DNA of 64,000 nt, from contig JADGDM010000002.1 in the NCBI GenBank assembly GCA_016744905.1, positions 62,001 through 126,000 of the forward strand. The letters are read 5' to 3'. The translations under genes were made by a program, and so were the position numbers. This DNA comes from Sulfurimonadaceae bacterium. Lineage in GTDB: Bacteria; Campylobacterota; Campylobacteria; Campylobacterales; Sulfurimonadaceae. Below, one piece after another: positions 22,463 through 51,858 of the stretch. Positions within the stretch are counted from its first letter, which is position 1; the number at the start of each line of letters is the position of its first letter. Below the pieces are notes generated by a model. That model had not been told where the DNA came from, made no database searches, and saw only the letters and a list, made by a program, of their open reading frames with translations.

Positions 22463-22463
22463 A

Positions 22464-24806
22464 CTATTTCTCCTCTTGTGGAATATCATAAAAAAAGTAG
22501 AAGTCATCTACCAGATAGTTGATTATTACCGACCAGGTTTGAACCATAAAAGTTCTGTCAAATTCATTCCCTGTATATACACCTTGATAATTGAACGAAC
22601 CGCTACAGTTGATAATACGCGTACGCCCTTGTGCTTTAAAATCCTCATAACTCTCTTTTAAAAGTGTGTACGTAAAATTTAACTCTTCAGAATCCAAACT
22701 CATCTCCTCATTACGAAGGTACTTATGTAAGTACTGAATATTTTGTTTAATCTTTGCGATATCTTCAGCACTTTCAGGTGTAGTGTTTACGTCTACAAAA
22801 GGGGTGAGTCGTTTTTCAGAGAGTGTACCTTTAGAATAGAGTAGATCAAAGCTCAACTCCTTACAGCCTGCGTCAAAAGAGATGCGTTTTTGTATGCCTG
22901 CTTTGATCGCATTCATTCCATGATCACGTCTATTTTCCAATTTATTATCAATACCTCCATAGAGAAGGTTATAGATAGTATCAATATAACGCCACTGAGA
23001 GTAGGTATTAAAATCAGAAGGTTTTAGTGTTGGCATCTTAGTGTTAAGCTTATCACTCAGCGCTTCAGGTGTTAAGAGATGACTATTTAAGAGCAATCTA
23101 TCAAGTTCTAAACTACTCTGATCTACGCTCTTTGCTCTAAAAAGTGCAGAAAAAATAATCTCTTTTATTAAGACCTTTGTATTTCGGTTTGAATTTTCAA
23201 ACTTCTCGATAATCCCCGCAACAATCTCCTCTTGAAGCTCATAAGCTTGAAGCAGTTCATTATACTTCTCATCATTGGCACTAGGATGTGTCAGCAGTTC
23301 GTGTCCTAAAAGCATCTTTGAGAAGTGTCTCAGCATGGTATGCACAAAACGAGGATCCTTGACTATCTTTGATGCCAACCACTGCAAAGAGTTCGGACGA
23401 AATTCATCAGGCATCACATCAATCATCGAGTAACCAATAGCAAACATATCTTTTTCATCAATATCAAACCAACCATCAAAACGCGGCAGATAAAATTGAG
23501 AACCAATCACCCCATAAAAGTTCTGATATGCCCCTGCAATTGGGTCCATTACATAGTGACAGACCGTACAATTGGGGTTTTGTGTGGTGGGGTTGGTATA
23601 GTTGTTATCTATACCTAAGTCCCCTGTACTACGAATAGCAATGGCTTCGATATCTACATTCCAGAAGAATTCGGCGATTTTCTTAGCGCGGTGACGGTTT
23701 CTATTCGTTCCACTGGTGGGATATTTTTTAAGAAAATAGAAATCATTTAATATCCCTGCGTGAGGATAATATTCAATATCTTGAAGACGTCTTTTTGCCG
23801 TACCATGAATATGGATCTTTGCCTCTTTGAAGTCATACCAAGAGTACGCTTCATAATTATCCGAACCATCATAGAAAAAGTTTTCATACTTTGACTGATC
23901 ATAGAATTCTGAGTTGTTCACATCCCATGATATCCCACTAAAAGGGTTAACTAAAATATAATCCGCAGTCAAAATTTCATCCAAAGAACGTTCATTTTTG
24001 ACAACATGTGCAATCAACTCTAAAGATTGACGCACTGCACCATAATTGGTACCGCGTTTCAGATAGTTCCACTTAGAGATATTTTCATCTTTATAGTGTT
24101 CCATCCATCTATACACATCTGTTGGAATACCTGCAGTAGAATTACCCAAATAGGAATCTATTTGAAAAATATCATTAAACTCAAACATCAGATAATCATA
24201 AAATTTATCATCTTGCATCATTACATCAAGATAACTGTTCAGCTCAGCTCTGCTCACTATATCTTGAAGTTCACTCTCATTTGCATCTCGATGGTACACT
24301 TTTGAGATGACTTTTTTAGCCGTAGATTTATAATCCAGCAGAGATATTTGAGCAGGACTCAAAGAAGCAAGTACAACATTACTGGGTAACTTACACAAGG
24401 GGGCATTAGATCCATAAGATTTAAAATTCTCAAAAGCCAAAACATCTTTATCATCAAAACTTGCCCCACCTTGATGTTCCAATACAGCGGTATTTTTTTG
24501 AATCAATCTTTTTTGGTTTTCAAGCATAAACTCTAAAAGAGTACTTTGGTTCAGTATTTTATCATCACTCAAAATCAGTGACGAACTACTTTCTGCTGCA
24601 CCACCATTAATATGACAAACCTTACACGCTTGAACACGTGGCTCTATTTCTGCAAGATAATAGCTATCTACACAGTTTTGTGTTCCATCAAGAATTTGTG
24701 TATTTTGACTTTGAGGTTCTTTATCATCAATTTGTGATGTAATAGAGTTGGGTGCCTCACATCCCAAGAAAAAGGCGACACATAGAAGTAAACATATCTT
24801 TTTCAT
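22464..24806 (-). CDS. Large cytochrome c-type lipoprotein (partner of DUF1501 protein)
   Basis: 780 residues. The lipoprotein signal (FFLGC, Cys at about 16) is followed by an N-terminal haem motif CKVCHINGG within a module that resembles the N-termini of the GH18 chitinase and the DUF1592-type protein at 45-52 kb. A second C-x2-C-H lies in CTVCHYVMDPIAGAYQNFYG, reminiscent of DUF1588/PSD1-type cytochromes, and the rest is mainly helical with many aromatic residues. It probably sits in the outer or inner membrane leaflet facing the periplasm or surface and exchanges electrons or co-folds with the DUF1501 protein. AAGGAATTGTGA precedes the ATG. Confidence 0.75.
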   Translation of the reverse strand: MKKICLLLCVAFFLGCEAPNSITSQIDDKEPQSQNTQILDGTQNCVDSYYLAEIEPRVQACKVCHINGGAAESSSSLILSDDKILNQSTLLEFMLENQKRLIQKNTAVLEHQGGASFDDKDVLAFENFKSYGSNAPLCKLPSNVVLASLSPAQISLLDYKSTAKKVISKVYHRDANESELQDIVSRAELNSYLDVMMQDDKFYDYLMFEFNDIFQIDSYLGNSTAGIPTDVYRWMEHYKDENISKWNYLKRGTNYGAVRQSLELIAHVVKNERSLDEILTADYILVNPFSGISWDVNNSEFYDQSKYENFFYDGSDNYEAYSWYDFKEAKIHIHGTAKRRLQDIEYYPHAGILNDFYFLKKYPTSGTNRNRHRAKKIAEFFWNVDIEAIAIRSTGDLGIDNNYTNPTTQNPNCTVCHYVMDPIAGAYQNFYGVIGSQFYLPRFDGWFDIDEKDMFAIGYSMIDVMPDEFRPNSLQWLASKIVKDPRFVHTMLRHFSKMLLGHELLTHPSANDEKYNELLQAYELQEEIVAGIIEKFENSNRNTKVLIKEIIFSALFRAKSVDQSSLELDRLLLNSHLLTPEALSDKLNTKMPTLKPSDFNTYSQWRYIDTIYNLLYGGIDNKLENRRDHGMNAIKAGIQKRISFDAGCKELSFDLLYSKGTLSEKRLTPFVDVNTTPESAEDIAKIKQNIQYLHKYLRNEEMSLDSEELNFTYTLLKESYEDFKAQGRTRIINCSGSFNYQGVYTGNEFDRTFMVQTWSVIINYLVDDFYFFYDIPQEEK

Positions 24807-28959: not shown

Positions 28960-29083
28960 TTGAGTCCTTAAATATTTGTGATATTTTAAAGATTGTAGAT
29001 TACCTCACTGTTACTCTTATCACACAGAAGTAACATAAAATCGTCACAGAAATGGAACATTTTGTTTTTAAGACTTTTTTATG

Positions 29084-30859
29084 TTAATTAAACTCTATTT
29101 TCTCTACTTCTGTACTCTGCTCTAGCTCCAACTCTTCATGTACATTTTCAACCGGTTTCACATGCGCATCACGTCCATAGATAAAACTTTGTTCTAAAAC
29201 GATGACACGGTACGCCTTATTGAGTGCTCTAGCGCGCTCGGCTGAGGGGATGATAAGGCTTGAGACATCACTATGTAGCGCGCTGAGTCTCTCCTCTTTC
29301 ACAAAACCTTGCGCATCAAAGAAGTTATGCATCACCTCTTCATTGCTTCTAAACTCATCGCCTGCACCATTTTCTTCTAAGTAGAGACTGTACTCATAAC
29401 GTCCATCTTTCGTTCGAGGTTCAGGGATGTTTTTAAAACCACTCTTTACCTGTGTCCAGTGATACCACCCTTTTGCCGTGCTACTATTTTCAAACTTTCT
29501 AGGAAAGACAAAGGTCGAATCAACAATCCCACCAATACCACTATGACAGCCGATGCAGTAGAGCGTCTCTTCATAGTTTTGTGGACGTAGCGCGCCGCTC
29601 TCATCTTCGATAAATCCTTGATAGACCCAACCCAGTCCTGTTTGAAGACCACTTTCAGCGTCACCTTTGATATTTCGAAGTCTATCAGGGAAGTCATCAC
29701 GCTCTTTAATCTCAGCAAGTGATGCATTATGTAGCTGTCCATAACTGTTCCATGATACTTTTTTGGCATATCTAAGCTCTTTCATGCGCGCTGACATCTG
29801 AACACTGTTGTTCTCATCAACATCAAGATAACGCACCGAGTGTAAAAACTCTGTTCCTTTGGGATAAAGCCCTGGCGCAATAAGATAGCTATTGTCTTCA
29901 AGCGCCTCTTTTGCTGCGCCCACATAAGACATAGAGAAGTTCTCTAACTTTTTATCCACAGCACTATAATCTGGTGTCTGCCAGTTAAAAACTATCTCAG
30001 TTGCCCTATCTAAGAGACCATTTTGATTAAGATCTACTCCATAAAGTGTCTCATCAGTCTCAGAAATAGAGATATTTTTCTCTTTGATTAAGCTCTCAAC
30101 GATACTGAGATTTAATTTATATACCTCAATATCAAAATCGCCTTGAGCATTTTGTGAAAAGATAGGTTCTAATCTTATAAGCACATCATCCGCGCTGCCA
30201 TTGATTGGCCAAAAAGTTCCTAAAAATGGATAGTACGCAAAGGCCCGCCATAAGGTATACTCCCCATTGGGCTTTTTATCAAAACCTTGCGCATCAAAAT
30301 CAAAATAACAATCAGGCAAGTACCCATTCCATTTTTCATCTTCATTCACATCCCACTTTTGTGGTACGTTTTCCAGTCTCTGCCTTAGTAGTAAGATTCC
30401 ATTTTTATCTTTATAGTTGTTCTCTTTGATATAGCTTGCTATTTGTGTATCATCCAGCGCGCCAACCTCAGCGGTTCTATCTTTAAAAAGGTTGCTAAAG
30501 CGGTTAATCTTTGTGTAGTCACTAAAGTCATAACTCTCTTGCAGGTCTGCATCATCGATATAATTTGGCTCTTTAGAGTTGATATGACAGCTAAAGCAGG
30601 GGTTATGAGAGATGTTGTTTTCATCTACAGTTTTGGTATAACACTGAGAGGTGACATAGGCTGCTCTGTTATTCACCGCAACACTTTTTTTAAAGTCGAT
30701 GTCTACCAGCACAGAGATGTTGTGTTCTCTTGGCGCGCTGGGTACAATTGATTTGCTTGTATTTGTCTCTTGAATAGGGACAGCATCAACACTGTTATTT
30801 TGACTTTCACATCCAAATAAAAATATTGACAGGCTTAAACTTAGTAATTTTAATTTCAT
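29084..30859 (-). CDS. Dihaem cytochrome c-type lipoprotein
   Basis: 591 residues with lipobox IFLFGC (Cys at about 17) and a short Asn/Thr/Ser linker. Two haem-binding motifs are visible: CFSCHINSKEPNY near residue 90 and CIGCHSGIGGIVD near residue 440. The rest is alpha/beta with many aromatic residues and Asp/Asn loops (VDLNQNGLLDRATEI looks like a calcium-binding loop). It lies between the phytase-like and PhoX-like genes in the same orientation, so the three may act together. I do not recognise a named family. It carries several D/E-X-N-X-S/T sequons. Confidence 0.7.
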   Translation of the reverse strand: MKLKLLSLSLSIFLFGCESQNNSVDAVPIQETNTSKSIVPSAPREHNISVLVDIDFKKSVAVNNRAAYVTSQCYTKTVDENNISHNPCFSCHINSKEPNYIDDADLQESYDFSDYTKINRFSNLFKDRTAEVGALDDTQIASYIKENNYKDKNGILLLRQRLENVPQKWDVNEDEKWNGYLPDCYFDFDAQGFDKKPNGEYTLWRAFAYYPFLGTFWPINGSADDVLIRLEPIFSQNAQGDFDIEVYKLNLSIVESLIKEKNISISETDETLYGVDLNQNGLLDRATEIVFNWQTPDYSAVDKKLENFSMSYVGAAKEALEDNSYLIAPGLYPKGTEFLHSVRYLDVDENNSVQMSARMKELRYAKKVSWNSYGQLHNASLAEIKERDDFPDRLRNIKGDAESGLQTGLGWVYQGFIEDESGALRPQNYEETLYCIGCHSGIGGIVDSTFVFPRKFENSSTAKGWYHWTQVKSGFKNIPEPRTKDGRYEYSLYLEENGAGDEFRSNEEVMHNFFDAQGFVKEERLSALHSDVSSLIIPSAERARALNKAYRVIVLEQSFIYGRDAHVKPVENVHEELELEQSTEVEKIEFN

Positions 30860-30888
30860 AATTTTCTCTCTGATTTAAAAGATAGTGC

Positions 30889-30908
30889 ACACCCTCAAAA
30901 GAGGATGT
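30889..30908 (-). terminator. Weak hairpin after the PhoX-like gene
   Basis: ACACCCTC / GAGGATGT pair with one mismatch around an AAAA loop, 8 bases past the stop of the 30916-34527 gene. The following minus-strand run (GCACTATCTTTT) is only weakly T-rich. Confidence 0.35.
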
Positions 30909-30915
30909 AAAGGTT

Positions 30916-33900
30916 TTATTTGATTTCGTAAACTACTGTTGTAGAGCTTACTTCATACGCTACTAAAAGTAGTGCTTTTCCTGTTGGACTATCAGCTTGA
31001 GAGATAAACTTCATCCCCTCAGGTGCAATATCATTGTCTTTGTGTGAAGCGATATAGTCAACATATCTAACATCTTGTGGATTGCTGATATCAAAGATCA
31101 TAATCGCACTTTGACGCTCAAGACCTACAAACGCGTATGTCACACCATCAACTTCACCAACAGCTAAGGCTTCAGGCTCCATACCCTTGTTTCCACTACG
31201 ACCATCTTTTTCAAAATCGTCATGGTTAAAAAGTTCTCTGTCATTTTGATAAACAATCTGTGCCATCAAGTTTGCACTGTCGAATACAAGGTTGGCATCT
31301 TCATCCCAGATAGAAAATGAACGTGCTCCATAAGCATAAAGTTTTTCATACACGCCATCATCGTTGGCATCACCCATATCTACCATAACTTTCAGGTCAT
31401 TTTCGTTTTCATACGCATCAGCAATAGCTGGATCAAGATCCAATTTTTTGATTTTTTTCTCATCTTCAAAAAGGTCACCCTCTTCGAAAGAGTCATTCAC
31501 ATCATACGTTGGGTATGAGCGACCATCACCTTCATTTGCTGTTACTAAGTATGTCTGTCCACCTGCAACATAGGACTGGATAGTATCGGGTTGAAAAAGA
31601 CCAAATAGATTTGGATACGCAGAGAGTTTAACCACCCCATCTTCTTCGATGTCCAGTGCATTTTTAGACAAAGAGTGATCTTTTGCACCTAGAGATTTGA
31701 TATACACTAAGGTGTTGTTGCTCAAGTCAAGTTTTGCAACAGCATTGTTCTCTTGAAGTGTAATATACGCAAATCCATTAGATACCGTAATATACTCAGG
31801 CTCTAAATCAAGCGCTAAATCATCACTTGGCGTGCCACCTAAACGTACCTGCGTACCATCAGTTGCGCTGCTTAATGTTGCGCCACTAAAGTTGATGTCT
31901 TCATAAGCGTTATTGGCTACAGTAAGGACACCGATTGAACCCATTGGATCCACATAAACGCCTGTATCTGCTTGAGGTTCTCCCTCATTGGCGACGATAA
32001 CGCTTGTTCCATCTTCATTAAACGTCACCATGTCAGGTAAAAATCCAACCTCAGTGGCAACTTGATTTGAACCATCTGTGTCCATAAGAACAACCTTACC
32101 TTTGCTACTCACCTTATTCGCAGAACCAACGGCTACGGCTACTTTATCATGGGAGACACTCACACTTTGAATGGCTGCACCGTGTGCCGACATATCGATT
32201 GACGATTCGAGTGTTAATGTTTTATCAGCATTGATAGTGGCTACGTCGATTCTATTGTTTGCCCCATTGGTGATAAACATTTTTTTACTTGTTTTATCAA
32301 AGGCAACAATCTCACTACCACCCTCGTTTTTATCATCACCTATTGAGCGTAATGTACCGACTTTAGATATAATTTTTTGATCCAGTTTTGTAAAGTTAAA
32401 TGGACCAAATACCCCTACAAATGACTCTTCCTCTGCAAGATAGTTTGAGCTGTTATCATCATCAATAGGATGTTGAGTCACCAAAGTTTGGTAACCATAA
32501 CCATTGACATTTTTGTACCAAAACGGAGATGTTGTCTCTGCCGCTGTTGGGGTTGTAAACGTGCGTGTTAGCGCGCCATTTTCAACGTCATATGCCCATA
32601 CGATATTGTTTTTATGATACGAGGTGTCTTCACCAATGCTTAAGATATTTGAACCCTCTAAATAAGTGATATTATCAGGATTTGAGATACCATTAACTGA
32701 ACAAGTATTTCCCTCATACGGGTGACCTGCTGGATACGAGGCAGGTTCACCGGTAAGTACAGCGTACATATTGTTTACAACATAAGAACTTGGAACGATA
32801 TTTCCATCCATATCCACTTGAGCAGACTCTTTAAGATCCAGCGCGTAGATACCACCACAAGGGTTGTAACCTAAACGGATGTCATTATTTGAACCCACAT
32901 CATATTTATCATTGTCACTCCCTTTTTTCTGCTCACTTTCCATACCGTAAGCAATTTGACTCATTGCTACATACAGACGGTTGTGATCCGCATCAAAAGT
33001 GATACCCTCTTCTTTTCTAAACTCAGTCGTTGCCCCTTTAAGTGCTGCGTAACGACGCGTCTCTAAGTAAGCCGCTGTTGTCTCCATGCCAGACTTTAGA
33101 GAGAGACATTCGTGACCTGCTGTTGTGTTGATAGAAGTTAGTGTTGCACATGAACCATCTTCTGAAACATCTTCACTATTAAAGATATCAGAGAAAACTG
33201 GCGCGTCATTCGTTGATACATTATTATCAGGATCGACAAGCGCTCTGAGTGTTGCGTCATCACTGTGTCCAAGTTTGATCCATGTCAGATCCGCTTTACC
33301 ACCATTGGCCGCTTCAACTTGAATCCATTTGGCTGCGTAGAGTGTTCCCTCGCTTAGATCAGCTGGTTTATCCGCCACAAACATAAAAAGACCCACATTG
33401 GTGCCATCATCACTCATATAAACAGTTTTTTGATCTGGCATTACATAAGAGAGTTCATGAGACATACGACCCATAGCGTAGTGCTTTTTATATACCGCTG
33501 CGTCATTAAGTGCGATAGTTACCTCAGGTGTCCAACCGTAGTAGTATGGACTTGAGAGTTTGATATCATCTTTCCAAAACTTCGCTGTTTCATCATAATA
33601 CTTTGAGCCCGTTAAACCTGTTAGTGCGTCTGCATCTTCTTCAACAAAACGAGCATTTGGCTCATACTCTTCGCTTCCTAGGTGAGACTCCCACGGTGTT
33701 TTTTGACCCGCACAGTGAACAAATCCACCAAATTCGTCGCTCTGAGAGATAAACTCTAGTGAAGAAGGTTTAACACTCAGTGCGCCATTAACGGGGTCTT
33801 GATCCAGTTCAGCCATATACATCGCACCGACTTGACACTCAAACTGAGAGACCATAAAAAGTTTGTTATTTTTTTGTAAGATCGATGTAAAGTCAAGACC

Positions 33901-34527
33901 TGAACCCACACCTGAATTTGTACCATTACAAACGTATGGTGTACCATCAGCAAAAGTGATCGCCTCATCTTTATAATCTTTCAGCGCGCCGAAGATTTCG
34001 CCATTGTTGACATCACCCGTTGCCATCAACTTCGTAAATTCAATCGCTTGAATTTCGCTATCAATGGTGACCATTGATGCGGCTTGAGGTTCTAATGCCG
34101 CGTCACCTAGTGGTGTAGCGATTTCAGAAAACTGAACCTTAGTTGCACTGTTAGCACTGCCGTACCTATTAAAAGAGATAGAAGCGATGCCATCTTTCCC
34201 ATCAAGACCATTTTCACCAGCACTACCTGTTTGACCGGTGATGCCTGTTACACCATCCGCTCCATCTTGACCCACTTCACCATTACAGATAATCTCCGTT
34301 TGTGTTACCTTATCAATTTCACTATTTCCCGTTGTATCAAAACCGATTTTAATACTTACTCCGCCAGTCGCACACTCCGTACTCCCAACTGCCAATGGGC
34401 TTTTTTGAACCAATGATGAGCCAACTTTAATTGTCCCTGCATCTGGTGCCTCTTCTGTCGTTGAATTGCTACATCCACTGACTAATAATAACGCTGCTAC
34501 TGATGAAAACAGTAAAGTTCTTTTCAT
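30916..34527 (-). CDS. PhoX-like (DUF839) phosphatase lipoprotein fused to a choice-of-anchor-I domain
   Basis: 1203 residues. Lipobox LLLVSGC (Cys at about 19). Residues about 30-85 form a small cysteine-containing domain (TECATGGVSIKIGFDTTGN..EIICNGE, DUF7151-like). A collagen-like stretch of about nine Gly-X-Y triplets follows (GQDGADGVTGITGQTG...). The central 130-730 region has PhoX/DUF839 features: EFGGFVHCAGQKTPWESHLGSEEYEPNARFVEE, YYGWTPEV, MGRMSHELSYVMPDQKTVYMSDDG and RKEEGITFDADHNRLYVAMS. The C-terminal 770-1203 is a choice-of-anchor-I propeller related to the neighbour at 26152. PhoX enzymes hydrolyse phosphomonoesters outside the cytoplasm using Fe and Ca. AAGGAAGTGAA precedes the ATG. 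Confidence 0.85.
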   Translation of the reverse strand: MKRTLLFSSVAALLLVSGCSNSTTEEAPDAGTIKVGSSLVQKSPLAVGSTECATGGVSIKIGFDTTGNSEIDKVTQTEIICNGEVGQDGADGVTGITGQTGSAGENGLDGKDGIASISFNRYGSANSATKVQFSEIATPLGDAALEPQAASMVTIDSEIQAIEFTKLMATGDVNNGEIFGALKDYKDEAITFADGTPYVCNGTNSGVGSGLDFTSILQKNNKLFMVSQFECQVGAMYMAELDQDPVNGALSVKPSSLEFISQSDEFGGFVHCAGQKTPWESHLGSEEYEPNARFVEEDADALTGLTGSKYYDETAKFWKDDIKLSSPYYYGWTPEVTIALNDAAVYKKHYAMGRMSHELSYVMPDQKTVYMSDDGTNVGLFMFVADKPADLSEGTLYAAKWIQVEAANGGKADLTWIKLGHSDDATLRALVDPDNNVSTNDAPVFSDIFNSEDVSEDGSCATLTSINTTAGHECLSLKSGMETTAAYLETRRYAALKGATTEFRKEEGITFDADHNRLYVAMSQIAYGMESEQKKGSDNDKYDVGSNNDIRLGYNPCGGIYALDLKESAQVDMDGNIVPSSYVVNNMYAVLTGEPASYPAGHPYEGNTCSVNGISNPDNITYLEGSNILSIGEDTSYHKNNIVWAYDVENGALTRTFTTPTAAETTSPFWYKNVNGYGYQTLVTQHPIDDDNSSNYLAEEESFVGVFGPFNFTKLDQKIISKVGTLRSIGDDKNEGGSEIVAFDKTSKKMFITNGANNRIDVATINADKTLTLESSIDMSAHGAAIQSVSVSHDKVAVAVGSANKVSSKGKVVLMDTDGSNQVATEVGFLPDMVTFNEDGTSVIVANEGEPQADTGVYVDPMGSIGVLTVANNAYEDINFSGATLSSATDGTQVRLGGTPSDDLALDLEPEYITVSNGFAYITLQENNAVAKLDLSNNTLVYIKSLGAKDHSLSKNALDIEEDGVVKLSAYPNLFGLFQPDTIQSYVAGGQTYLVTANEGDGRSYPTYDVNDSFEEGDLFEDEKKIKKLDLDPAIADAYENENDLKVMVDMGDANDDGVYEKLYAYGARSFSIWDEDANLVFDSANLMAQIVYQNDRELFNHDDFEKDGRSGNKGMEPEALAVGEVDGVTYAFVGLERQSAIMIFDISNPQDVRYVDYIASHKDNDIAPEGMKFISQADSPTGKALLLVAYEVSSTTVVYEIK

Positions 34528-41649: not shown

Positions 41650-44600
41650 ATGAAAACAGTTATAAATTTTATCAGCGTATTACTAATTAGTATTTTTGTA
41701 TTTACTGGTTGTGAATATACAGACAAGTCTAGTGAACAGAACCTTAGTACTTTACCTACAGTTTTTGATGAAGAGTTTAGCTCCGATATCAACAGTGATA
41801 CTATTTTCAATAATGAAGCGCCCCATATTATAAGTATCAGGCTTAACAATGATACTGAACTATTAAATGAGGGTGAAATCAGTAACATCGATCTTAACGG
41901 TGAATTTATTATCTATTTTGATCAAGCCATGGATATGAGCGGTATTCATCAAGGGAGTGTACAACTCAAGTATGAAGATGATAAGGGCGCTGAGATTACT
42001 ATTGATTCTCAAGTAGGTAATGAAAGTGCTGTCCGAGTTTCACTAACAGATGGAATACCTCTTTTAAATGGAACACGCTATACCCTCTCTTTTTCTAATG
42101 AGATTAAAAGTATTAATGGGAATTTCATCACCCCATTTGAAGTCTCATTTACAACACAATCTTTCAACAATGACACGACATCTCCTATTATCATCTCTTC
42201 AACACCTGAAAATCAAGGAACCAATGCCTTTATTAATGGCAATATTATTATAAGATTTAATGAAAGCCTTGATGCCCAAAGCATCACCCAAAGCTCAATT
42301 GAAGTACAAAACAACCTAACACAACAATTTGTCATCTTCCATCCAAGTGTTAATGACAACATAATCACTTTTACACCAGAAAACCCTCTTGAATATGGAA
42401 CTCTTTATGATGTTGCTGTTAATACAAATATACAAGACAGTGCAGGAAATTATCTAGAGAATAGACATTTCTTTCACTTTACGACTCAAGATATGCCAAT
42501 AGAGAATACTGTCGATCTAATAGCACCCGTTTTCACTTCAGCCACAAGCTATTCTGTAGACGAGAACCAACTTACTGCTTTTACTGCTATGGCTACGGAT
42601 AATCTTTCAACACTTATTAGCTATACCATTCTTAGCGGTTATGATAAAAGTAGTTTTGATATTACTTCATCTAGTGGAGAGATACTATTTATTAGCGAAC
42701 CAGACTTTGAAACTAAAAGTGTTTATACATTAAATATCCGTGCTACTGATGAAGCCTTAAACTACGTAGAACAAATAGTAAACCTTAACATTCAAAATAT
42801 TAATGAGCGTCCTACTGCACAAGGTATTAGTGGTGCAACGGTTGGAATGGATATGACATCAAGTATTACATTATTAGGTTCAGATGAAGAGAGTTCACCT
42901 CTAACTTATAGCATAGTATCTTTTCCATCAAAAGGTTCTGTCTCCATTAACGGCAATATCGCCTCTTTCACAGCTTCTGCAGGAGAAAGTGGAAGTGACA
43001 GCTTTTGGTATAAGGTTAATGATGGTATCAAGGATAGTATTTCAGCCTTAGTTACTCTTAATATCGTTGATCAAAGTGGACCTGTAGTTATAAATGCAAC
43101 CCCTTTAAATAACGCTTTAGGAATTCGCCCCGATACAAATATCACACTGACATTTAACGAAGCCCTAGAACCAAGCAGTATTACAGATTTTTCTGTCCAT
43201 CTCTTAGACACCAATGGTCTGGTCTCAGGTAGCGTTCTTTTACAAGGGCAAACATTAATTTTCACGCCAACCACTGCTTTAAATTATGACATGCAGTACA
43301 CTATTAATGTTCAAACCAGCATTACAGATATAGCAGGAAATGTAGTCGATGATACCTATGGAAGTGTCTTTACCACTGGTTCATTTTTTGAGCTCGCCCC
43401 ACTTGGACATCTCTTTAGTGGTGTTAACGGTAATGACTTTGCCAATGACGCCGTGATGGACAACGCTGGATTTTTCTATGTGACGGGTGCCACTACCAAC
43501 TTGGACAATGATTTAGATATGATTGTTGCTAAATACCGTCCAGATGGGACACTAGACACTACTTTTAATGGTAGTGGCTTTTATATTGATAAAAACCTTG
43601 CAGGTGGGTGTGCCGGATATTCTGATGATGTAGGTAATGCCATTGCTTTAGACAGTATGGAAAATATCTATATAACAGGATACAGCACAAGCTGTGACAA
43701 TCCTCAGAATACAGATATGGCTATTTGGATGTTCTCTCCAACAGGAGTACGAAAAGTAGCAACTTCTTACGCTTCCATCGCTGGAGAGCATAACGATACT
43801 GATGAAGGTAACGACATAGCCATAGACAGTAATAATAATATCTATGTAACTGGTGTCAGCCACAACGGCACGGATAGCTTAGATATGTATCTATCAAAAT
43901 ATACTCTCGGTGCTAGTGGCATTGTGTTAGAGCCCGGATGGACAGATATTAAAAAAGATATAGGAAGTGCAGCAGTTGGTATAGATCAAGGTCATGCCCT
44001 AAGCATCGATCAAAATGATAATATCTATGTCGCAGCTCAAAGTTATAACGGAAATACCTTTACCTTTGATATTATTCTTTTGAAATACCTTTCTGATGGA
44101 AGTATGGACAGTACCTTTGGTCCAACCAGTACTGGAATAGTTGTTCAAGATATTGTTGTAGACGGAAATTCACGACAAGATATCCCAAGAGATATTGTTC
44201 TTGACAGTAGCAATAATATCTATGTTGTCGGAGAGAGTGATGGAGAAAGTGTACTTCTCAAATATTCATCTAATGGAGACTTAGATCCATTTTTTGGAAT
44301 TGGGAACAGTGGTTATATCATAAATATGATAGGACAAAACAACTTTGCATATTCTGCCGCCTTAGATGATACTGGGCATATTTATGTAGCGGGGAATATA
44401 GCGAGTAGTCCAGATTCCATGTTTACTGCTAAATTCGACTCAGAAAATGGTAGCCTAATCAGTGACTTTGGGACCAATGGACATGTCATTTATGACAACA
44501 GTAATGGTGCTTCAATAGCCCATACTCTCATACTTGATAGTGAAAATAGACTCAATATTTTTGGAGGCGCGTATAACAATGAAAATAGCTCTACAGACCT

Positions 44601-44955
44601 CACTTTTTGGAGATATAATGACGTAGATACAACCCCTCCTATTGTCCTTTCTACCTCTCCTAACAATACTGGCACTATGAATACTTCTTCAGTAATTACT
44701 ATTACCTTTAATGAACCACTCTACCAAGCCAGTATTCAAGCAGGATACTCTGTACAACTTTTTCGAGATCTAATTGCTGAAGCACACTACGCGTACTCAA
44801 CAACGCCTGACACCCACATCATAAACATCCAAAAAGATGATACTGGAACACCTTTTACTCCTGGAGAGTACACCTGTAGCATTACAAGTGATGTTCTTGA
44901 TACCTCAGGGAATCGTCTTCCTATCAGCTATTCATTTAGTTTTACAATTCAATAA
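41650..44955 (+). CDS. Large surface lipoprotein with Ig-like, cadherin-like and delta-60 repeats
   Basis: 1101 residues with lipobox FVFTGC (Cys at about 20). Two SbsA/Big_5-like Ig domains near the N-terminus (TSPIIISSTPENQG.., ITFTPENPLEYGTLYDV), a cadherin-like domain (about 295-390), a further Big_5 domain, then at about 600-990 a run of delta-60-type repeats with recurring units such as LDSMENIYITGYS, IDSNNNIYVTGVS and LDSSNNIYVVGES, and a last Big_5 domain at the C-terminus. Typical of long surface adhesins or matrix lipoproteins. It is the last gene of the caspase-like cluster, 12 bases after the beta-barrel gene, and converges with the chitinase gene. Confidence 0.85.
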   Translation: MKTVINFISVLLISIFVFTGCEYTDKSSEQNLSTLPTVFDEEFSSDINSDTIFNNEAPHIISIRLNNDTELLNEGEISNIDLNGEFIIYFDQAMDMSGIHQGSVQLKYEDDKGAEITIDSQVGNESAVRVSLTDGIPLLNGTRYTLSFSNEIKSINGNFITPFEVSFTTQSFNNDTTSPIIISSTPENQGTNAFINGNIIIRFNESLDAQSITQSSIEVQNNLTQQFVIFHPSVNDNIITFTPENPLEYGTLYDVAVNTNIQDSAGNYLENRHFFHFTTQDMPIENTVDLIAPVFTSATSYSVDENQLTAFTAMATDNLSTLISYTILSGYDKSSFDITSSSGEILFISEPDFETKSVYTLNIRATDEALNYVEQIVNLNIQNINERPTAQGISGATVGMDMTSSITLLGSDEESSPLTYSIVSFPSKGSVSINGNIASFTASAGESGSDSFWYKVNDGIKDSISALVTLNIVDQSGPVVINATPLNNALGIRPDTNITLTFNEALEPSSITDFSVHLLDTNGLVSGSVLLQGQTLIFTPTTALNYDMQYTINVQTSITDIAGNVVDDTYGSVFTTGSFFELAPLGHLFSGVNGNDFANDAVMDNAGFFYVTGATTNLDNDLDMIVAKYRPDGTLDTTFNGSGFYIDKNLAGGCAGYSDDVGNAIALDSMENIYITGYSTSCDNPQNTDMAIWMFSPTGVRKVATSYASIAGEHNDTDEGNDIAIDSNNNIYVTGVSHNGTDSLDMYLSKYTLGASGIVLEPGWTDIKKDIGSAAVGIDQGHALSIDQNDNIYVAAQSYNGNTFTFDIILLKYLSDGSMDSTFGPTSTGIVVQDIVVDGNSRQDIPRDIVLDSSNNIYVVGESDGESVLLKYSSNGDLDPFFGIGNSGYIINMIGQNNFAYSAALDDTGHIYVAGNIASSPDSMFTAKFDSENGSLISDFGTNGHVIYDNSNGASIAHTLILDSENRLNIFGGAYNNENSSTDLTFWRYNDVDTTPPIVLSTSPNNTGTMNTSSVITITFNEPLYQASIQAGYSVQLFRDLIAEAHYAYSTTPDTHIINIQKDDTGTPFTPGEYTCSITSDVLDTSGNRLPISYSFSFTIQ

Positions 44956-44973: not shown

Positions 44974-47406
44974 CTACGGCAGTGGAGAGTAGTTGTCTAT
45001 GACAAAACTCTTCACTGTTATCTGCGCAAAACCATCACTTGCATTTTGACTTAAAAATGCAAAGTTAAACTTTCCTACATTACTTTTATCCAGTGTTGTG
45101 GCTTGTGTGCCTAACCAGAGAAAGTCGCTGTCTAAACTGAGTACTATGGACACGACTTCATTGTTGGTTGAAGGTAGTGCCGCTTGATTATGCTGACCAC
45201 CATGAACATCTGTTTGACGTAACTGTAATATGGCGTCTGTATTTGAGCTATACGTAATACTTACGACTGTAGAACTGCTCAGATCCACCTTTGGTGTGGC
45301 GAAAGGGTCGTTACTCCCATAAGGATTAATTGGCAGTGACATCTCAAGATACGCACCTCCATAAGGTATATTTCCTTTTAATATCGCTACTTTTTTACCC
45401 TCAACATCAACCAGTGCATCGGTTCCACTACTTGGTGTTAATACAACACCACCATCCCCTGATCCCACAGCCCAATACCGGTAATCTTCGAGCAAAGCAG
45501 TCGTTGGTGTAGTGGTATTCGTCTCTGGCGCGCTGGTATTGTTTTCAACAGGAGGGACATAACTCATATTGTTTTCCAAATTATCATACATGGCGCCCAT
45601 TAAGTCACCATTGTCTGCATCAATTTCCCATGAAAAGAGACCTGCTAAATTGTTTTCACGTACATAATCACCCTTGGCAAAAACGGTACGCACATCGTCA
45701 AATGAGATCAACTGATTACTTGTTTCATTGTAAATATACGAGGCCTGAGCACTCTCATCAAAATAATAAACAAATCCATTTTTACCCTGCAGTGTTACAG
45801 GATCAAAATAGTTTGCCACAAGATCTTTATAGTCATAAATACCCGCTTCCCACGTTCCATCCATAGCGCCACTTCCCGTAAAATAAGTCCCATCAAAAGT
45901 GACATTTTTCCAGCCCCGACCATATTTACTCACGCCGATGACCAGCTTACTGCCTTGAACACCCTGTGTCAACATAGCGTTCACACTTGCTTCAATATTA
46001 TAATCTTCTGTTGGTTCATTGAGTGTCGGATAGAGTCCACTTTGGTGCCCGATAGTCGAGTTCCATGTTCCATAATAATCATAGCTCATCATAAAGATAT
46101 AGTCCAGACTATTTTGCGCCGCATTATAATCCACCTCATCTATCTTTTGACCTATCCCAATAGCAGTAGTAAGCTCATAGCTTCGTCCCGTGACCAGACT
46201 CAACGCATCAAGTCCAGCGCGCAAGTCTGCCATCAAGGCTGTATAGTTCGCCTTGTCTGCACTTGAACCCAGTGCGCTGTTTGCTCCTCCACCGCCAGGA
46301 AATTCCCAGTCAATATCAAGCCCATCAAAAAAGTCATACTGTGTAATAAAAGCGATGGCACTATCAACAAATACCTTTCTCTGCGCGCTACTATCTGCAA
46401 GAGTGAAAAATGGATCAGAGAGTGTCCATCCCCCGATTGACGGTAAAACTTTCAAATGAGGATTGGCTTTTTTAAGCTCGATTAACTGTCCAAAATTCCC
46501 TTTTAAAGTCCCACTGCTTGGATGTGTAGGATAAGTTTTTTCTAAACTCGCAAAATCATCAACGACTATTAATTCGTAGTCGTTTTTGGAAGCACATTTG
46601 GCCGTGATAATATCTTGCACATTTTGTGTTGCGGAGGTGTTATCTCCACACATAGCGATAAATCCATAAAGAAGATGGGTTAACTTTTCTGCGGGGATGT
46701 CATTGACATGATAGTCACGACCGTAAACACTCCACTCCACAAAATAGGTTCCTCGTACATAGTTCTGCGCTATCGTAGTGGTATTGGTTTCTGGAATTGT
46801 CGTATTGTTTTCAGGTGTTGTTGTATTCGTTTCCTCTGGAACTGTGGTATTTGTCTCCTCAGGAACAGTAGTATTACTTTCTGGCGTTGTTGTGTTTGTC
46901 TCTTCTACTACCGTCGTATTGGTTTCGGGTGTGGTGCTATTTATCTCCACATTCTCTTCTACACAAACATTTCCACTGCTGCGCGCTTGGATATACTTAC
47001 TAAAAAAGTTATGCACGTTATATTCAAACTTTCCGCCACTATGATCAACACCCGTACCTTTGATGATCTTTTGCAAAATCAAAATAGAATTTCCACGCTC
47101 TAGATCAAGGTAGTCATCTAAGGCCATTTGATTAAAAGTATTGTTATTCTCTTGAAACTTTAAAGGGGTGAGTGAGCTACTATTATGGCAAGCCACACAG
47201 TTGTCTACGGTATTAAATTGTGTATACACTTCAGTCGAACAGAGATTCTCAATATTGATTACAATGTTATCCACAACAGTCTCATTTGACTCTTGCGTAG
47301 TGTTTGATTCAATGCTTGTATTTGTCTCCTCTAGCGGATCTAAAAACTCTGAACAGCCACTAAAAATTGACCCACCAATAAGCAGTGATACCAATAAATT
47401 TTTCAT
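44974..47406 (-). CDS. GH18 chitinase lipoprotein with N-terminal cytochrome c motif
   Basis: 810 residues from ATG 47406, with lipobox FSGC (Cys at about 18). Residues about 50-140 carry a haem motif NCVACHNSSS and a trailing HSGGKFEYNVHNFF. A linker of about 45 residues made of E-T-N-T-T units follows. Residues about 210-590 form a GH18 chitinase: YGRDYHVNDIPAEKLTHLLYGF, LPSIGGWTLSDPFF, and the active site DGLDIDWEFPG with catalytic Glu368, then MSYDYYGTW. A C-terminal beta-sandwich (about 640-810), probably carbohydrate-binding, follows a second sequon linker. GH18 enzymes cleave chitin by retention. A haem-c domain on such an enzyme is odd. An in-frame TTG at 47418 is an alternative start. 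Confidence 0.87.
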   Translation of the reverse strand: MKNLLVSLLIGGSIFSGCSEFLDPLEETNTSIESNTTQESNETVVDNIVINIENLCSTEVYTQFNTVDNCVACHNSSSLTPLKFQENNNTFNQMALDDYLDLERGNSILILQKIIKGTGVDHSGGKFEYNVHNFFSKYIQARSSGNVCVEENVEINSTTPETNTTVVEETNTTTPESNTTVPEETNTTVPEETNTTTPENNTTIPETNTTTIAQNYVRGTYFVEWSVYGRDYHVNDIPAEKLTHLLYGFIAMCGDNTSATQNVQDIITAKCASKNDYELIVVDDFASLEKTYPTHPSSGTLKGNFGQLIELKKANPHLKVLPSIGGWTLSDPFFTLADSSAQRKVFVDSAIAFITQYDFFDGLDIDWEFPGGGGANSALGSSADKANYTALMADLRAGLDALSLVTGRSYELTTAIGIGQKIDEVDYNAAQNSLDYIFMMSYDYYGTWNSTIGHQSGLYPTLNEPTEDYNIEASVNAMLTQGVQGSKLVIGVSKYGRGWKNVTFDGTYFTGSGAMDGTWEAGIYDYKDLVANYFDPVTLQGKNGFVYYFDESAQASYIYNETSNQLISFDDVRTVFAKGDYVRENNLAGLFSWEIDADNGDLMGAMYDNLENNMSYVPPVENNTSAPETNTTTPTTALLEDYRYWAVGSGDGGVVLTPSSGTDALVDVEGKKVAILKGNIPYGGAYLEMSLPINPYGSNDPFATPKVDLSSSTVVSITYSSNTDAILQLRQTDVHGGQHNQAALPSTNNEVVSIVLSLDSDFLWLGTQATTLDKSNVGKFNFAFLSQNASDGFAQITVKSFVIDNYSPLP
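46777..46958 (-). repeat. Tandem coding repeat of ETNTT-type units in the chitinase linker
   Basis: About seven imperfect units of 24-30 bases encoding E-T-N-T-T or close variants (ESNTT, ENNTT) separated by one to four residues such as P, VPE or VVE. Each unit matches the D/E-X-N-X-S/T acceptor motif. Synonymous differences between units argue for selected protein sequence rather than very recent slippage. Confidence 0.8.
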
Positions 47407-47407
47407 C

Positions 47408-48694
47408 TTAAACGCCAAGCAGACCGCTCAACGCGCCAGTCTTCCCAAAGTGATAACCATACTTATCAATATCCATCCCTGCAAACTGTGCCGCAGATAC
47501 CAATAATTGCTCATGAGAGGTATCTGAATACGTTAATATACGCCCACCTTGTCCACCGCCTGCAACAATAAATGGCATATCATCTCCACCATGACCATTA
47601 GAATGTGAAACATCACTTCCAAAAACAATCATCGTATTATCAAGAAGGGTTCCCTCCTCCACGGTAATAGTTTTCAGCTTATTTATCAGATCTTTCAACT
47701 GTTCAGCGTACCAATTTCTGTGTGCATTAAAATCAGCACCCCAAGCGTGAGACGCAGCGTGACCTTGAGAATTTGCACCAATCCATGGCATCGGCATCTC
47801 CGAGGTGTTGTGTGAATAGTTTAAAGTCACACTTCTCGTCTTTCCTGTTGCTAAGGCTGCTACGGCGATGTCATTGTTTAGTGAACTTACATCTGGGATA
47901 TTTGCTAAGTCTGTGACTGAACCTAATGATTGTAGCTTAGCGATGTCAACTATCGTTGTCGGGTCAATTGCCCCTTCGATATTTGACTGAGAGAGTGTTA
48001 AATTGATACGTGACTTAAGATCTGTAATCGCATCAAGGTTTTGCTCCAGTTTTGATTGCTCGATAAGACCCAGTGCTGATTTCATATCATTAAGTTCTGA
48101 CTGAACATGTTCTAAGGCTTTTAAACGTCTTTGTGTGGCTAAATCTACACTATTGGTACTGCTACTACTTGACCCTATATCTCCAAAAAGAGAGCTGTAA
48201 CTGATAGAAGGATTGTCCTCCGGTAAGATGGGTGAGCTCCAAGATGATGCGTTTTTATATGTGGTACTAAATGGAAAGTTTTGGAAGTTATGGCGCATCC
48301 CCAAAAGAAGATACGGGTGGGTAATACTTATATCTGCGGCTTGTGCAAAACTACCAATAGCCACATTGATGGAGGTAGTATCAAAGTTGGTCAGTAAGGT
48401 TTTGGTTCCTCCATCATGGTTGGTTCCACTCTCAAAAGGAGAGTTTTTAAGATCAACGCCTCTTAAAAAAGTACAATGCTGTTTAACAGATTCTAAAGAG
48501 CTGTTCTGCGCACCTAAGGTAAGGTCAGACGCCGGATGCCACTGTGAAGGGTCAATCCCATCAGGCATGTGAATAAAAATCACATTTTTAGCGGGGTTTT
48601 GCGCTGCATTTAGGATACTTGGAAAACTCAAGGCCAGAGGCAGTGCCGCTGAACCGCTTAATATATTTTGTAAAAAATTTCTTCTATTCATCAT
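47408..48694 (-). CDS. Tat-exported DUF1552-family protein
   Basis: About 428 residues. MNRRNFLQNILSGSAALPLAL is a twin-arginine signal. The mature part shows DUF1552 features: NVIFIHMPDGIDPSQWHP, FLRGVDLKNSPFESGTNHDGGTKTLLT, LNYSHNTSEMPMPWIG and TMIVFGSDVSHSNGHGGDDMPFIVAGG. This family normally pairs with DUF1592/1588/1585 cytochromes, as here with the gene upstream. Two ATGs follow a GTG; 48694 has GGAG 6 bases upstream. Its stop is two bases from the chitinase ATG, so the three genes form one operon. Confidence 0.85.
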   Translation of the reverse strand: MMNRRNFLQNILSGSAALPLALSFPSILNAAQNPAKNVIFIHMPDGIDPSQWHPASDLTLGAQNSSLESVKQHCTFLRGVDLKNSPFESGTNHDGGTKTLLTNFDTTSINVAIGSFAQAADISITHPYLLLGMRHNFQNFPFSTTYKNASSWSSPILPEDNPSISYSSLFGDIGSSSSSTNSVDLATQRRLKALEHVQSELNDMKSALGLIEQSKLEQNLDAITDLKSRINLTLSQSNIEGAIDPTTIVDIAKLQSLGSVTDLANIPDVSSLNNDIAVAALATGKTRSVTLNYSHNTSEMPMPWIGANSQGHAASHAWGADFNAHRNWYAEQLKDLINKLKTITVEEGTLLDNTMIVFGSDVSHSNGHGGDDMPFIVAGGGQGGRILTYSDTSHEQLLVSAAQFAGMDIDKYGYHFGKTGALSGLLGV

Positions 48695-48705
48695 CACAAA
48701 CTCCT

Positions 48706-51700
48706 CTAGTTTTCTCTATGCGTAAACGCATTTAGTTGTGTCATCTCTATCATCAGTGTTTTAATATTACCACCACTCTCAACAAAACGTGCCTTTAAAT
48801 TATCCAGTGAACAACTGTCCATATCCGCTTCCATATAGCCCTTAGAAAATCTAAAATATTGTGTGGCGTAACACTCTTTTGTCTGCTGTTGTGTCGCCAA
48901 TGTTTCAATCAAATCATCACGTGAACTATAAGGGATCTCCGCCCCATCAAATCTGCTTTTAATTCCCTCTAGAACACCTGCTGTTGTGATGTCCAAAAAC
49001 AGTGGACTCTGCTCAGTCCCTTTCATCTCTTTTTCACGGTAACGACCATCACCCTCATAGTTTTCAAAGGCATATCCGATATCATTAAAACTCATATGAC
49101 ACGCATAACAACGTGATGGACTGGTGTGGACATCAAAAAGTTCTCTTGTTGTAACCGTCTCATCTGGCTCAGGAGGAGAGGTATTTACAGCCTCGGTTGA
49201 CACTGGCGCAAATGGTAGGTCATGACATAAAATCTCACGTCTGATAAATGAACCACGACTCAGCGCGCCAGACTCATCAAACTGACCATGTGAAGCTAAA
49301 AATGCCCCTGTTCTTAAAAGACCCCCACGGCTGGTCGTTCCAAATTCTGTTCTTTTACTCTGTTTTTGCATCGCTGAACCACTTAAACTTGTGTCTAAAG
49401 AGTAGAAAGTTGAGAGTGTATCATTGGCAAAAAAGTACTCAGCGTCCATCATTTCTGAGAAAGTGCCACTGCCTTCATATACGGCGTACTTAACAATCTG
49501 TGCAAACTCCGCAGCAAGTGAAGACTTCACGCCTAGCGCGTTAAACTCTGCAGAAGATTTAGGGCCAATAGCGTCTTCTTCAGTATGTAACCACAGTCCA
49601 CTAAATCGTGCAATCTGATCTTTGGCCGCTGATGTCTCTACCATCCGTGTTGCTTGCGCTTTTATCTGAGCAGCCGTATGTAAACTGCCTGCATCTGCTA
49701 GGTCAAACAACTCTTGGTCTGGCATACTTCCCCAAAGAAGATAAGAGAGTGCCGAAGCCACCTCATAATCATTTAATAGCGCATAGCCAAAACCTGTATC
49801 ACTACCGACTTCTGAACGATATAAAAAGTTTGGAGAGATTAAAATAGTTGTAAAATAATCTTTTAAGCCCTCTGTGGTTGTATCTGCCGTTTTAATCATG
49901 CTGCTTAGAGTACTCAAATCAGCACCAGAAACTGCTTTTCTATAAACTTTCTTTGTAAAATCTGCCACAAAATTATCTACACAAGCATCTTCATTTGATG
50001 GCAAAGCACGTAAGGCAGGTGACGCTGAACTGCAGGTTCCTTGAAGTGTCCATGTATTTTCATACGCAGAACCAACACCCAACTCCCAAGCAGCCAAACC
50101 AGCAGCTGAATCATCTGAACACCAAGTATTATAGATACATTGATACTCTTTACCATTATAAGAGACCACATCATTGGCTGCGTACGTTGAACCAGCGACA
50201 TACGCTGGCGCGCTACAAGTAGTCGTTCCTGAACCAACATCAACGCTACTGTTGTCTTCTACTAAACCACAGCTATAAACCGTGTCTAAATGCTCATCAA
50301 CCACCAAGTCAGAAATCGCTATCGCCACATTCAAATAACTCTCCATCTTAGAAGCATTGGCAATACTGGCATCAACCGAGTTTTTATAGTTTGAAAAAAC
50401 CTTATCTGATGGCAATGCATCTGTGGCGCTTGAACTAAATCCAAAAAGATCTTTTAGCGTGTTTGTATATTCTTGTCTGTCTAATAGTCTGAGGTATTTT
50501 GGAGAAACACTACTGCTGTCATCACACAGTGTTGCATTCTCTTCTTGTTGATATGGGTTGTCAAAGTTTTCTACTGCATACGTATAGATAGCATCTGAAC
50601 ACTCTTGATCACACGCCGATGCATTATACGTTGGCATAGAGTCTGCGATATATTTGACCAAAATCTCTTTTGAACTCACTTTTGAGAAAAAGTCAGGATT
50701 TCCATCAACTCCGATACCATCTGACCCATGACAAAATGCACACTGCGCGCTGTAAAGTTTGGCACCATCAAGAACAACAGTAGTATTGGTCTCAGTCCCA
50801 GTAGAGGTGTTTGTCTCAGGAATCGTTGTTCCACCTGAACCATCAACCACAGGACGTTCAAAATTACTCTCTGCATACGCTGCAATTTTGTCCGAACACT
50901 CTTGATCACAACTTCCATGATCAAGTGGAGGCATGGTATCTCTAATTTTACTTGCCAACAGTGCAGTTGAATCAAATTCACTATCAAGTACAAAATAAGC
51001 ACCGCCAAGTCCGCCTTCACCATTGCTTCCATGACAGTGCGCACACTTTTGTCCATAATGTTCTGCTCCACTTAAACTGATAAGCGTTTCATTATTTTCG
51101 TCAGTCTCATTATTTTCAATTGATGTAGTTGTATTGGTCTCCACATCTGTATTGTTTAGAGTTACATTTGGAAAGTTTTCCAAAGCGTAATCATATATCG
51201 CTTCTGAACAGGCATCATCACAGCTACTTGCACTGTTTGGAGGCATCGTTTCACTCACATACGCAACTAAAGAACGATGTGTCGGGTAGTCACTGTCTTC
51301 TTTAAAATAATCTCCTGCAAAAGAGAGTCCCTCTGTTCCATTGGCACCATGACACGACGCACATTGTTGCGCATAAAGTTCAGCTCCATCTAAAGTACTG
51401 TTTTCCTCTGGAGTCTCAATATTCTGTGAACTGTCAAAAACACCTGCTGTGCTACAACTCTCAGGATGAGCATATATATCAACAAATTTAACAAAAAACT
51501 CTAAGATCTCAGCTTCTGCTTTTCCTCCACCATGAGGCATTAAATTATCAGCATCAATTTTAGCAAGCAATCTATCGCTGTCTGATTTGGTTCTAAAATA
51601 ACTTGATAGTGATATATAGTTAAAGCCACTATCATTGAAGCGTAAATCAAATGAAGTAAATCCATCACTCTCTTCGTTATGACAAACCACACAGTTATTG

Positions 51701-51858
51701 ATTAAGTCTGATGAGGCTAGAAAATCCTCCGCACACTGATTACTGGCACGTGTAAAAGTACCCTCTGTTGTATCCACTTTTACTTCTGGTTCAATATCTT
51801 CTGAACATGCTGTAAAAAAAAGCAGTGTAAATAGTAGAATCATAAATAAGTTTTTCAT
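48706..51858 (-). CDS. Multi-haem DUF1592/1588/1585-type lipoprotein with embedded chitin-binding domain
   Basis: 1050 residues with lipobox FFTAC (Cys at about 18). Four N-terminal c-type haem motifs: CVVCHN, CASCHG, CAHCHG and CAFCHG, the last three in repeated c-domains separated by sequon-rich linkers. From about residue 440 the DUF1587-like start (KYLRLLDRQEYTNTLKDLFGF) is interrupted by a CBM5/12-like chitin-binding segment (about 550-620: YVAGSTYAANDVVSYNGKEY, then W and Cys residues), then DUF1595/1592/1588/1585-type regions: FVADFTKKVYRKAV, GLLRTGAFLASHG, CYACHMSFNDIGYAFENYEG (a fifth C-x2-C-H) and CYATQYFRFSKGY. It probably transfers electrons during oxidation of a polymer at the surface. 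Confidence 0.85.
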   Translation of the reverse strand: MKNLFMILLFTLLFFTACSEDIEPEVKVDTTEGTFTRASNQCAEDFLASSDLINNCVVCHNEESDGFTSFDLRFNDSGFNYISLSSYFRTKSDSDRLLAKIDADNLMPHGGGKAEAEILEFFVKFVDIYAHPESCSTAGVFDSSQNIETPEENSTLDGAELYAQQCASCHGANGTEGLSFAGDYFKEDSDYPTHRSLVAYVSETMPPNSASSCDDACSEAIYDYALENFPNVTLNNTDVETNTTTSIENNETDENNETLISLSGAEHYGQKCAHCHGSNGEGGLGGAYFVLDSEFDSTALLASKIRDTMPPLDHGSCDQECSDKIAAYAESNFERPVVDGSGGTTIPETNTSTGTETNTTVVLDGAKLYSAQCAFCHGSDGIGVDGNPDFFSKVSSKEILVKYIADSMPTYNASACDQECSDAIYTYAVENFDNPYQQEENATLCDDSSSVSPKYLRLLDRQEYTNTLKDLFGFSSSATDALPSDKVFSNYKNSVDASIANASKMESYLNVAIAISDLVVDEHLDTVYSCGLVEDNSSVDVGSGTTTCSAPAYVAGSTYAANDVVSYNGKEYQCIYNTWCSDDSAAGLAAWELGVGSAYENTWTLQGTCSSASPALRALPSNEDACVDNFVADFTKKVYRKAVSGADLSTLSSMIKTADTTTEGLKDYFTTILISPNFLYRSEVGSDTGFGYALLNDYEVASALSYLLWGSMPDQELFDLADAGSLHTAAQIKAQATRMVETSAAKDQIARFSGLWLHTEEDAIGPKSSAEFNALGVKSSLAAEFAQIVKYAVYEGSGTFSEMMDAEYFFANDTLSTFYSLDTSLSGSAMQKQSKRTEFGTTSRGGLLRTGAFLASHGQFDESGALSRGSFIRREILCHDLPFAPVSTEAVNTSPPEPDETVTTRELFDVHTSPSRCYACHMSFNDIGYAFENYEGDGRYREKEMKGTEQSPLFLDITTAGVLEGIKSRFDGAEIPYSSRDDLIETLATQQQTKECYATQYFRFSKGYMEADMDSCSLDNLKARFVESGGNIKTLMIEMTQLNAFTHREN

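Follow-up and report, generated by a model that had tools for sequence, protein, structure and literature searches.

As reported, Cbp2D of Cellvibrio japonicus is composed of CBM2, X158, FN3, X183, DUF1587, and X132, and its X183 cytochrome slowly reduces lytic polysaccharide monooxygenases (LPMOs) in vitro (PMC8981238). Deletion of Cbp2D/Cbp2E impairs growth on insoluble cellulose, whereas an LPMO mutant grows like the wild type, and the authors suggested direct cutting by Cbp2D/Cbp2E (PMC12542752). The X183 domains of Teredinibacter, whose midpoint potentials range from +11 to +124 mV, donated no electrons to the cognate LPMO (PMC10916295). Furthermore, PSCyt genes with carbohydrate-binding modules (CBMs) were reported in Verrucomicrobia (PMC5615132), a CBM2 protein of Cellvibrio was annotated as DUF1592 in the meta-proteome of a lignocellulose-degrading community (PMC6004670), and bacterial chitin synthases are adjoined by DUF1501/DUF1800 pairs (PMC5122149). 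In this study, we analysed a 64,000-nucleotide stretch (the window) of a Sulfurimonadaceae bacterium (contig JADGDM010000002.1 of assembly GCA_016744905.1), in which a DUF1592-type cytochrome, a DUF1552 protein, and a glycoside hydrolase family 18 (GH18) chitinase are encoded together at 44974-51858 on the minus strand. DUF1552 and DUF1592 are common in planctomycetes and are listed in Pfam as being of unknown function. We suggest, with moderate confidence, that the three products form a chitin-attack complex outside the cytoplasm, which would be a Cbp2D-like, chitin-specialised member of the CBM-X183-X132 redox type and act by a route other than an AA10 LPMO.

The operon is compact and comprises three co-directional genes in the order P1 (48706-51858), P2 (47408-48697), and P3 (44974-47418), all on the minus strand. 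P1 and P2 are spaced by 8 nt. The likely start codon of P3 is the ATG at 47406, directly after the stop codon of P2, and the listed TTG start of P3 is therefore probably too early. The positions of the open reading frames, the near-zero gaps, and the Pfam content agree with the three-gene operon proposed in an earlier note on this DNA. The GC content of P1, P2, and P3, overall and at third codon positions, is inside or near the range of the window; a recent import of the trio was considered, and these values give no pointer to recent transfer. Promoter-like sites are no more frequent than in shuffled sequence.

P1 is a predicted lipoprotein (LLFFTAC) with an N-terminal haem domain (CVVCH, HGGG), three X183-type cytochrome c domains, DUF1587, an embedded CBM73, DUF1595, DUF1592, DUF1588 with the fifth CxxCH, and DUF1585. 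DUF1587 and DUF1595/1592/1588/1585 all exceed the Pfam cut-offs (PF07631, 106 bits; PF07627, 89; PF07626, 48; PF07637, 40; PF07624, 31), and the five CxxCH motifs lie at residues 56, 166, 272, 373, and 917, consistent with the multi-haem lipoprotein of DUF1592/1588/1585 type named in the earlier note. Three stretches match cbb3-type cytochromes (PF13442), and residues 265-334 give the best match for the X183 domains, to a 'putative lipoprotein' domain (PDB 8q1v, E 1.6e-9). We take 8q1v to be a solved X183 domain of TERTU_2913 (PMC10916295). The three domains align with common CxxCHG, MP, and CD..C features and are joined by Asn/Thr-rich linkers. Judged by this homology, the haem domains in the region of about residues 150-440 (50536-51411, minus strand) are X183 cytochromes.

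The embedded module lies between DUF1587 and DUF1595 (about residues 547-611; 50025-50220, minus strand). PF02839 (CBM_5_12) covers residues 552-577 with 28.2 bits, narrowly over the cut-off of 26.2. In a phmmer comparison, PDB 6z41 matches residues 547-611 with an E-value of 3.6e-7 when the whole protein is the query and 4.8e-9 when the segment is; the alignment spans 65 residues, retains four cysteines, and far outranks the matches to CBM5/12 chitinases. The 6z41 record is named as a Cellvibrio 'carbohydrate binding protein, putative, cpb33A', and we take it to be the CBM73 of Cellvibrio LPMO10A. By homology, the segment is thus a CBM73 and not a generic CBM5/12. The CBM5/12-like chitin-binding segment that the earlier note placed at residues 550-620 of the cytochrome does match a carbohydrate-binding family, and its identity can be sharpened accordingly. 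The DUF1595-1585 set of P1 very probably corresponds to X132 of CAZy, an equivalence drawn from PMC8981238 rather than from comparison with an X132 model. A YceI-like X158 domain was not found in P1 by profile search (E up to 1), and for this reason we label P1 as Cbp2D-like rather than as Cbp2D.

P3 is a predicted lipoprotein (IFSGC) with an N-terminal haem domain (CVACH, HSGG), a Thr/Asn/Glu linker, a ChiA-type GH18 domain (about residues 220-617), and a C-terminal domain of about 170 residues. PF00704 scores 267 bits, ChiA entries in the PDB match with E of about 1e-115, and the alignment covers ChiA residues 135-536, the full barrel. The catalytic motif (DxxDxDxE) is intact as DGLDIDWE at residues 365-372. 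The single CxxCH of P3 is CVACH at residue 74, and the surrounding N-terminus is homologous to the N-terminal haem domain of P1 (33% identity, E 3.9e-11; z = 18.9 against shuffles), and both have H-x-GG after the haem motif. Hence the haem-c motif that the earlier note assigned to the chitinase is real, and it belongs to a whole haem domain like that of P1 rather than standing in isolation. The C-terminal domain (residues 640-814; 44977-45501, minus strand) is unassigned to a family and strongly conserved in the homologue from a second genus. Its search against the PDB gave no credible match, and matches to ribosome-inactivating proteins were judged to be chance (E 0.075 and above). As a separate observation, D/E-x-N-x-S/T sequons crowd the linkers of both lipoproteins, with 15 in P3 and 8 in P1 against 1.4 and 1.5 expected from the shuffled proteins (reached in 0/300 shuffles). 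D/E-x-N-x-S/T is the glycosylation pattern of Campylobacter PglB, and the relatives of P1 and P3 in the second genus carry few such sequons.

P2 matches DUF1552 (PF07586) with 141 bits against a cut-off of 30. Its N-terminus is MNRRNFLQ, and the model for twin-arginine translocation (Tat) signals, TIGR01409, scores 13.2 bits, below the cut-off of 16.7. The DUF1552 assignment of the earlier note is thus firm, while the Tat signal relies on the NRRNFLQ motif, the model score being sub-threshold. In the alignment, H313, H317, D353, and H369 are conserved. H313 and H317, which form the H-x3-H core of HXXSHH, are invariant in 5/5 sequences, and the third His is missing in 5/5.

The RecB-like helicase of this genome scores 1018.8 bits to NF010485, a model associated with Campylobacterota, and mainly on this ground the bacterium is probably a member of the sulfur-oxidising Campylobacterota. 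DUF1552 occurs in 1/298 and DUF1592 in 1/397 sampled genomes of the class. Within the family, DUF1552 is present in 2/228 genomes, this one and one of a second genus (G498), and close homologues of P3 are confined to the same two of the 228. For independent genomes, such a DUF1552/GH18 coincidence would have a probability of about 4e-5; these genomes are not independent, so the value is indicative only. The single match of the DUF1552 profile search in genome contigs (L003) was rejected, since the Tat signal alone matched and the protein is an unrelated phosphoesterase-like one. Viral contigs searched with the DUF1552 and DUF1592 alignments contained no relatives.

G498 has its DUF1592-DUF1552 pair on a contig of 9.9 kb and its GH18 gene on another of 68 kb, amid unrelated neighbours. 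The G498 chitinase is 63% identical to P3 over residues 159-813. Its N-terminal part is an X183 domain (8q1v, E 3.1e-8; Cbp2D entry 7b21, just E 0.038) that is closest to the first X183 of P1 (39% identity, E 1e-17). The haem domain of P3 is of the P1 N-terminal type and that of the G498 enzyme is an X183, so in both genera the chitinase carries a haem domain akin to that of a redox protein, of different kinds. The G498 DUF1592 protein also carries a CBM73 (E 3.1e-8, matching also CbpD and GbpA; PF02839, just 12.8 bits), located before an X183 domain, whereas that of P1 is inside the DUF module. Between the window and G498, the DUF1592 cores are 27% and the DUF1552 proteins 26% identical, and with such low identity the pairs are either old or separately acquired. 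Chitin modules may have been joined to DUF1592 proteins twice. Collectively, the linkage of the trio is not conserved, and its co-occurrence is.

DUF1592-DUF1552 adjacency is also found in Pseudoalteromonas, a Planctomyces plasmid, and Sphingobium. The pairing that the earlier note had described is therefore widespread; the conserved linkage that it proposed as a check holds for these two genes and fails for GH18, which is unlinked in G498, the only other family member with both. In Sphingobium, the operon reads DUF1592-DUF1552-cytochrome c-cytochrome b, and with two cytochrome genes after the pair, a connection to electron transport in the membrane is plausible. On a Pseudoalteromonas plasmid (L016 7303-13776), a 2157-aa protein with three CBM26, a GSDH domain, haems, and a DUF1592 core adjoins DUF1552, and it is possibly a starch-directed counterpart.

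Based on these observations, we propose the following mechanism. P3 would hydrolyse chitin through its GH18 domain. P1 would grip chitin by its CBM73, with the chain of five haems attached to the DUF1587-DUF1585 module. P2 would be the standing partner of this module, and the pair would most likely form a redox site whose target would be chains of chitin, their ends, or oligomers. The X183 haems of P1, together with the N-terminal haem domains that P1 and P3 have in common, would carry electrons between this site and the c-type cytochrome pool. The CBM73 of P1, the ChiA-type GH18 with its intact motif, and the CBM73 of the G498 DUF1592 protein give good support for chitin as the target. The hypothesis of the earlier note, that chitin is oxidised and its electrons pass into the c-type pool, is plausible, although no match for a GSDH-type sugar dehydrogenase was found; it represents one of the two electron directions that the data allow.

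The genomic background bears on this scheme. We searched six family genomes, including this one (99.99% complete) and G498, for LPMOs of the AA10 family alone (PF03067) and found none; the system is therefore probably not feeding an AA10 LPMO. GH20 (PF00728), NagB (TIGR00502), and the pyrroloquinoline quinone sugar dehydrogenase GSDH (PF07995) were not found in the same six genomes, nor NagA (TIGR00221) in the four of them, this one among them, that were searched for it. This genome and G498 each encode a GH3-family enzyme. Moreover, three other family genomes encode GH18-CBM5/12-GH19 chitinases with no evident haem domain (L018 6682-9672, L019 8413-11649, and L020 8137-11130). The earlier note regarded chitin use as unexpected in a presumed chemolithoautotroph; for this lineage the remark stands only in part, since other members of the family carry these chitinases.

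Several points weigh against the proposed complex. The canonical genes for N-acetylglucosamine (GlcNAc) catabolism, GH20, NagA, and NagB, were not found, and the gain from chitin is uncertain. The Sphingobium and Planctomyces pairs lie without obvious polysaccharide context, and the membership of P3 in the operon could be recent, because GH18 is unlinked to the pair in G498. A PDB profile search with DUF1552 gave nothing credible, and one with the DUF1592 module matched only CBM73, so that neither supplied a usable template. Single-sequence models of P2 and of the C-terminal domain of P3 (the latter a low-confidence all-beta one) reached mean confidence (pLDDT) values of 33 and 37, too poor for use of the fold. 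In addition, no catalytic cofactor besides haem is recognisable in P1 or P2.

The absence of GlcNAc genes would suit a different role, in which CBM73 and GH18 serve adhesion to chitin, a host, or particles, and the haem proteins leave chitin chemically untouched, serving extracellular electron transfer in general or the handling of oxygen/peroxide. The lipoprotein-type N-termini of P1 and P3 fit this role, as do two further cytochrome-lipoprotein/DUF1501 pairs in the genome that have no chitin module. However, the CBM73 interrupts the DUF1592 core instead of capping a free end, and each of the two chitinases of the subfamily bears a haem domain, for which adhesion has no need. We consider adhesion rather unlikely. 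Another possibility concerns P2, whose conserved H313, H317, D353, and H369 form a metal-site-like pattern: DUF1552 could be a hydrolase of the alkaline-phosphatase/sulfatase superfamily, desulfating or deacetylating for example, with P1 mainly as a carrier. Residues 321-381 of P2 do match GalNAc-6-sulfatase in the PDB, but with an E-value of 0.7, which is not significant; the profile search gave nothing, and the five haems would be left unexplained. This makes such a hydrolase quite improbable. The separate location of GH18 in G498 could also mean that the chitinase neighbours the DUF1592/DUF1552 pair only by coincidence and works on its own. To this idea we give little credence, as the co-directional genes are almost gapless, P1 and P3 share an N-terminal haem domain, and the genes co-occur in the same 2/228 genomes. 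Finally, a role of P1 as electron donor to an LPMO, as proposed for Cbp2D, with its similar domain content and in vitro activity (PMC8981238), is very improbable given the lack of an AA10 match in this genome and G498 and the failure of the Teredinibacter domains to supply their cognate LPMO (PMC10916295).

Within the proposed chitin-attack complex, a bolder version can be envisaged, which we regard as unlikely. The X183/DUF1592/DUF1552 pair itself might be a haem-based enzyme that attacks chitin oxidatively without an LPMO, alongside a haem-tethered chitinase, and a bacterium from a lineage that is mostly lithotrophic might thus respire electrons from an insoluble polysaccharide that it cannot catabolise via the GlcNAc route.

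Other genes of the window and genome were also recorded. A second pair of a Tat protein and a haem lipoprotein lies at 21206-24806 (minus strand). Its Tat member is a DUF1501 protein (62 bits), and the partner, of 780 aa, has two CxxCH motifs and shows traces of DUF1588/DUF1592; a third pair of this kind is encoded on a different contig (L029 5711-9392). The N-terminal haem domain of P1 recurs in the L029 cytochrome (z 7.3), which the cytochrome at 21206-24806 resembles (z 13.5). At 41650-44955 (plus strand), a large lipoprotein gene, coding for four Ig-like domains of the Big_5 type and for beta-propeller repeats, ends 19 bases from the convergent P3 gene. The region 26152-34527 (minus strand) encodes two choice-of-anchor I lipoproteins, of which one has a phytase-like and the other a PhoX-like part; between them lies a lipoprotein of 591 aa that weakly matches cytochrome P460. 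A lipoprotein at 16886-18601 (plus strand) contains a bacterial SH3 domain and resembles GH19 weakly, with 18.6 bits against a cut-off of 25.5; it is possibly another chitin or cell-wall hydrolase.

The Cellvibrio deletions leave open whether Cbp2D-like proteins feed LPMOs or attack the polysaccharide themselves (PMC12542752). A genome with the redox protein, DUF1552, and a haem-fused chitinase, in which an AA10 LPMO was undetected, separates these two ideas and offers an LPMO-independent test of X183/X132 function. DUF1552 and DUF1592 also gain a specific candidate substrate, chitin, and haem domains are seen fused directly onto a GH18 chitinase in two genera.

Among known systems, Cbp2D and TERTU_2913, redox proteins proposed to supply LPMOs, stand closest to this one. 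P3 shares the catalytic domain and DxxDxDxE motif of Serratia marcescens ChiA, but it has no counterpart of the ChiA portion before residue 135, begins as a haem lipoprotein, and ends in a new C-terminal domain. The planctomycete PSCyt3/PSD proteins (PMC5615132) have the same DUF1587/1595/1592/1588/1585 order, a DUF1552 neighbour on the Planctomyces plasmid, and in some cases CBMs; these CBMs are from other families, and a chitinase operon is not described there. The 'starch-binding protein' D172_RS17460 of Pseudoalteromonas sp. Bsw20308 likewise combines a CBM, cytochrome, and DUF1592 core beside DUF1552, whereas its CBM26 is for starch and a GSDH domain is fused. For TERTU_2913/TERTU_3803 of Teredinibacter turnerae, three X183 and X132 occur in one exported protein (TERTU_2913), as is very probably the case in P1, but X122 domains take the place of CBM73, and the organism is a cellulose-degrading shipworm symbiont with an LPMO. 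X158 is present in Cbp2D and Cbp2E and absent from the described layout of TERTU_2913. Finally, Cbp2D and P1 both unite a CBM, an X183 cytochrome, and DUF1587 in one exported protein, with X132 in Cbp2D and its very probable equivalent in P1. In contrast to Cbp2D, P1 has no YceI-like X158 and its genome has no AA10 match; it has CBM73 instead of CBM2, four N-terminal haem domains (three of them X183) instead of one, an adjacent DUF1552, and a haem-fused chitinase in the same operon.

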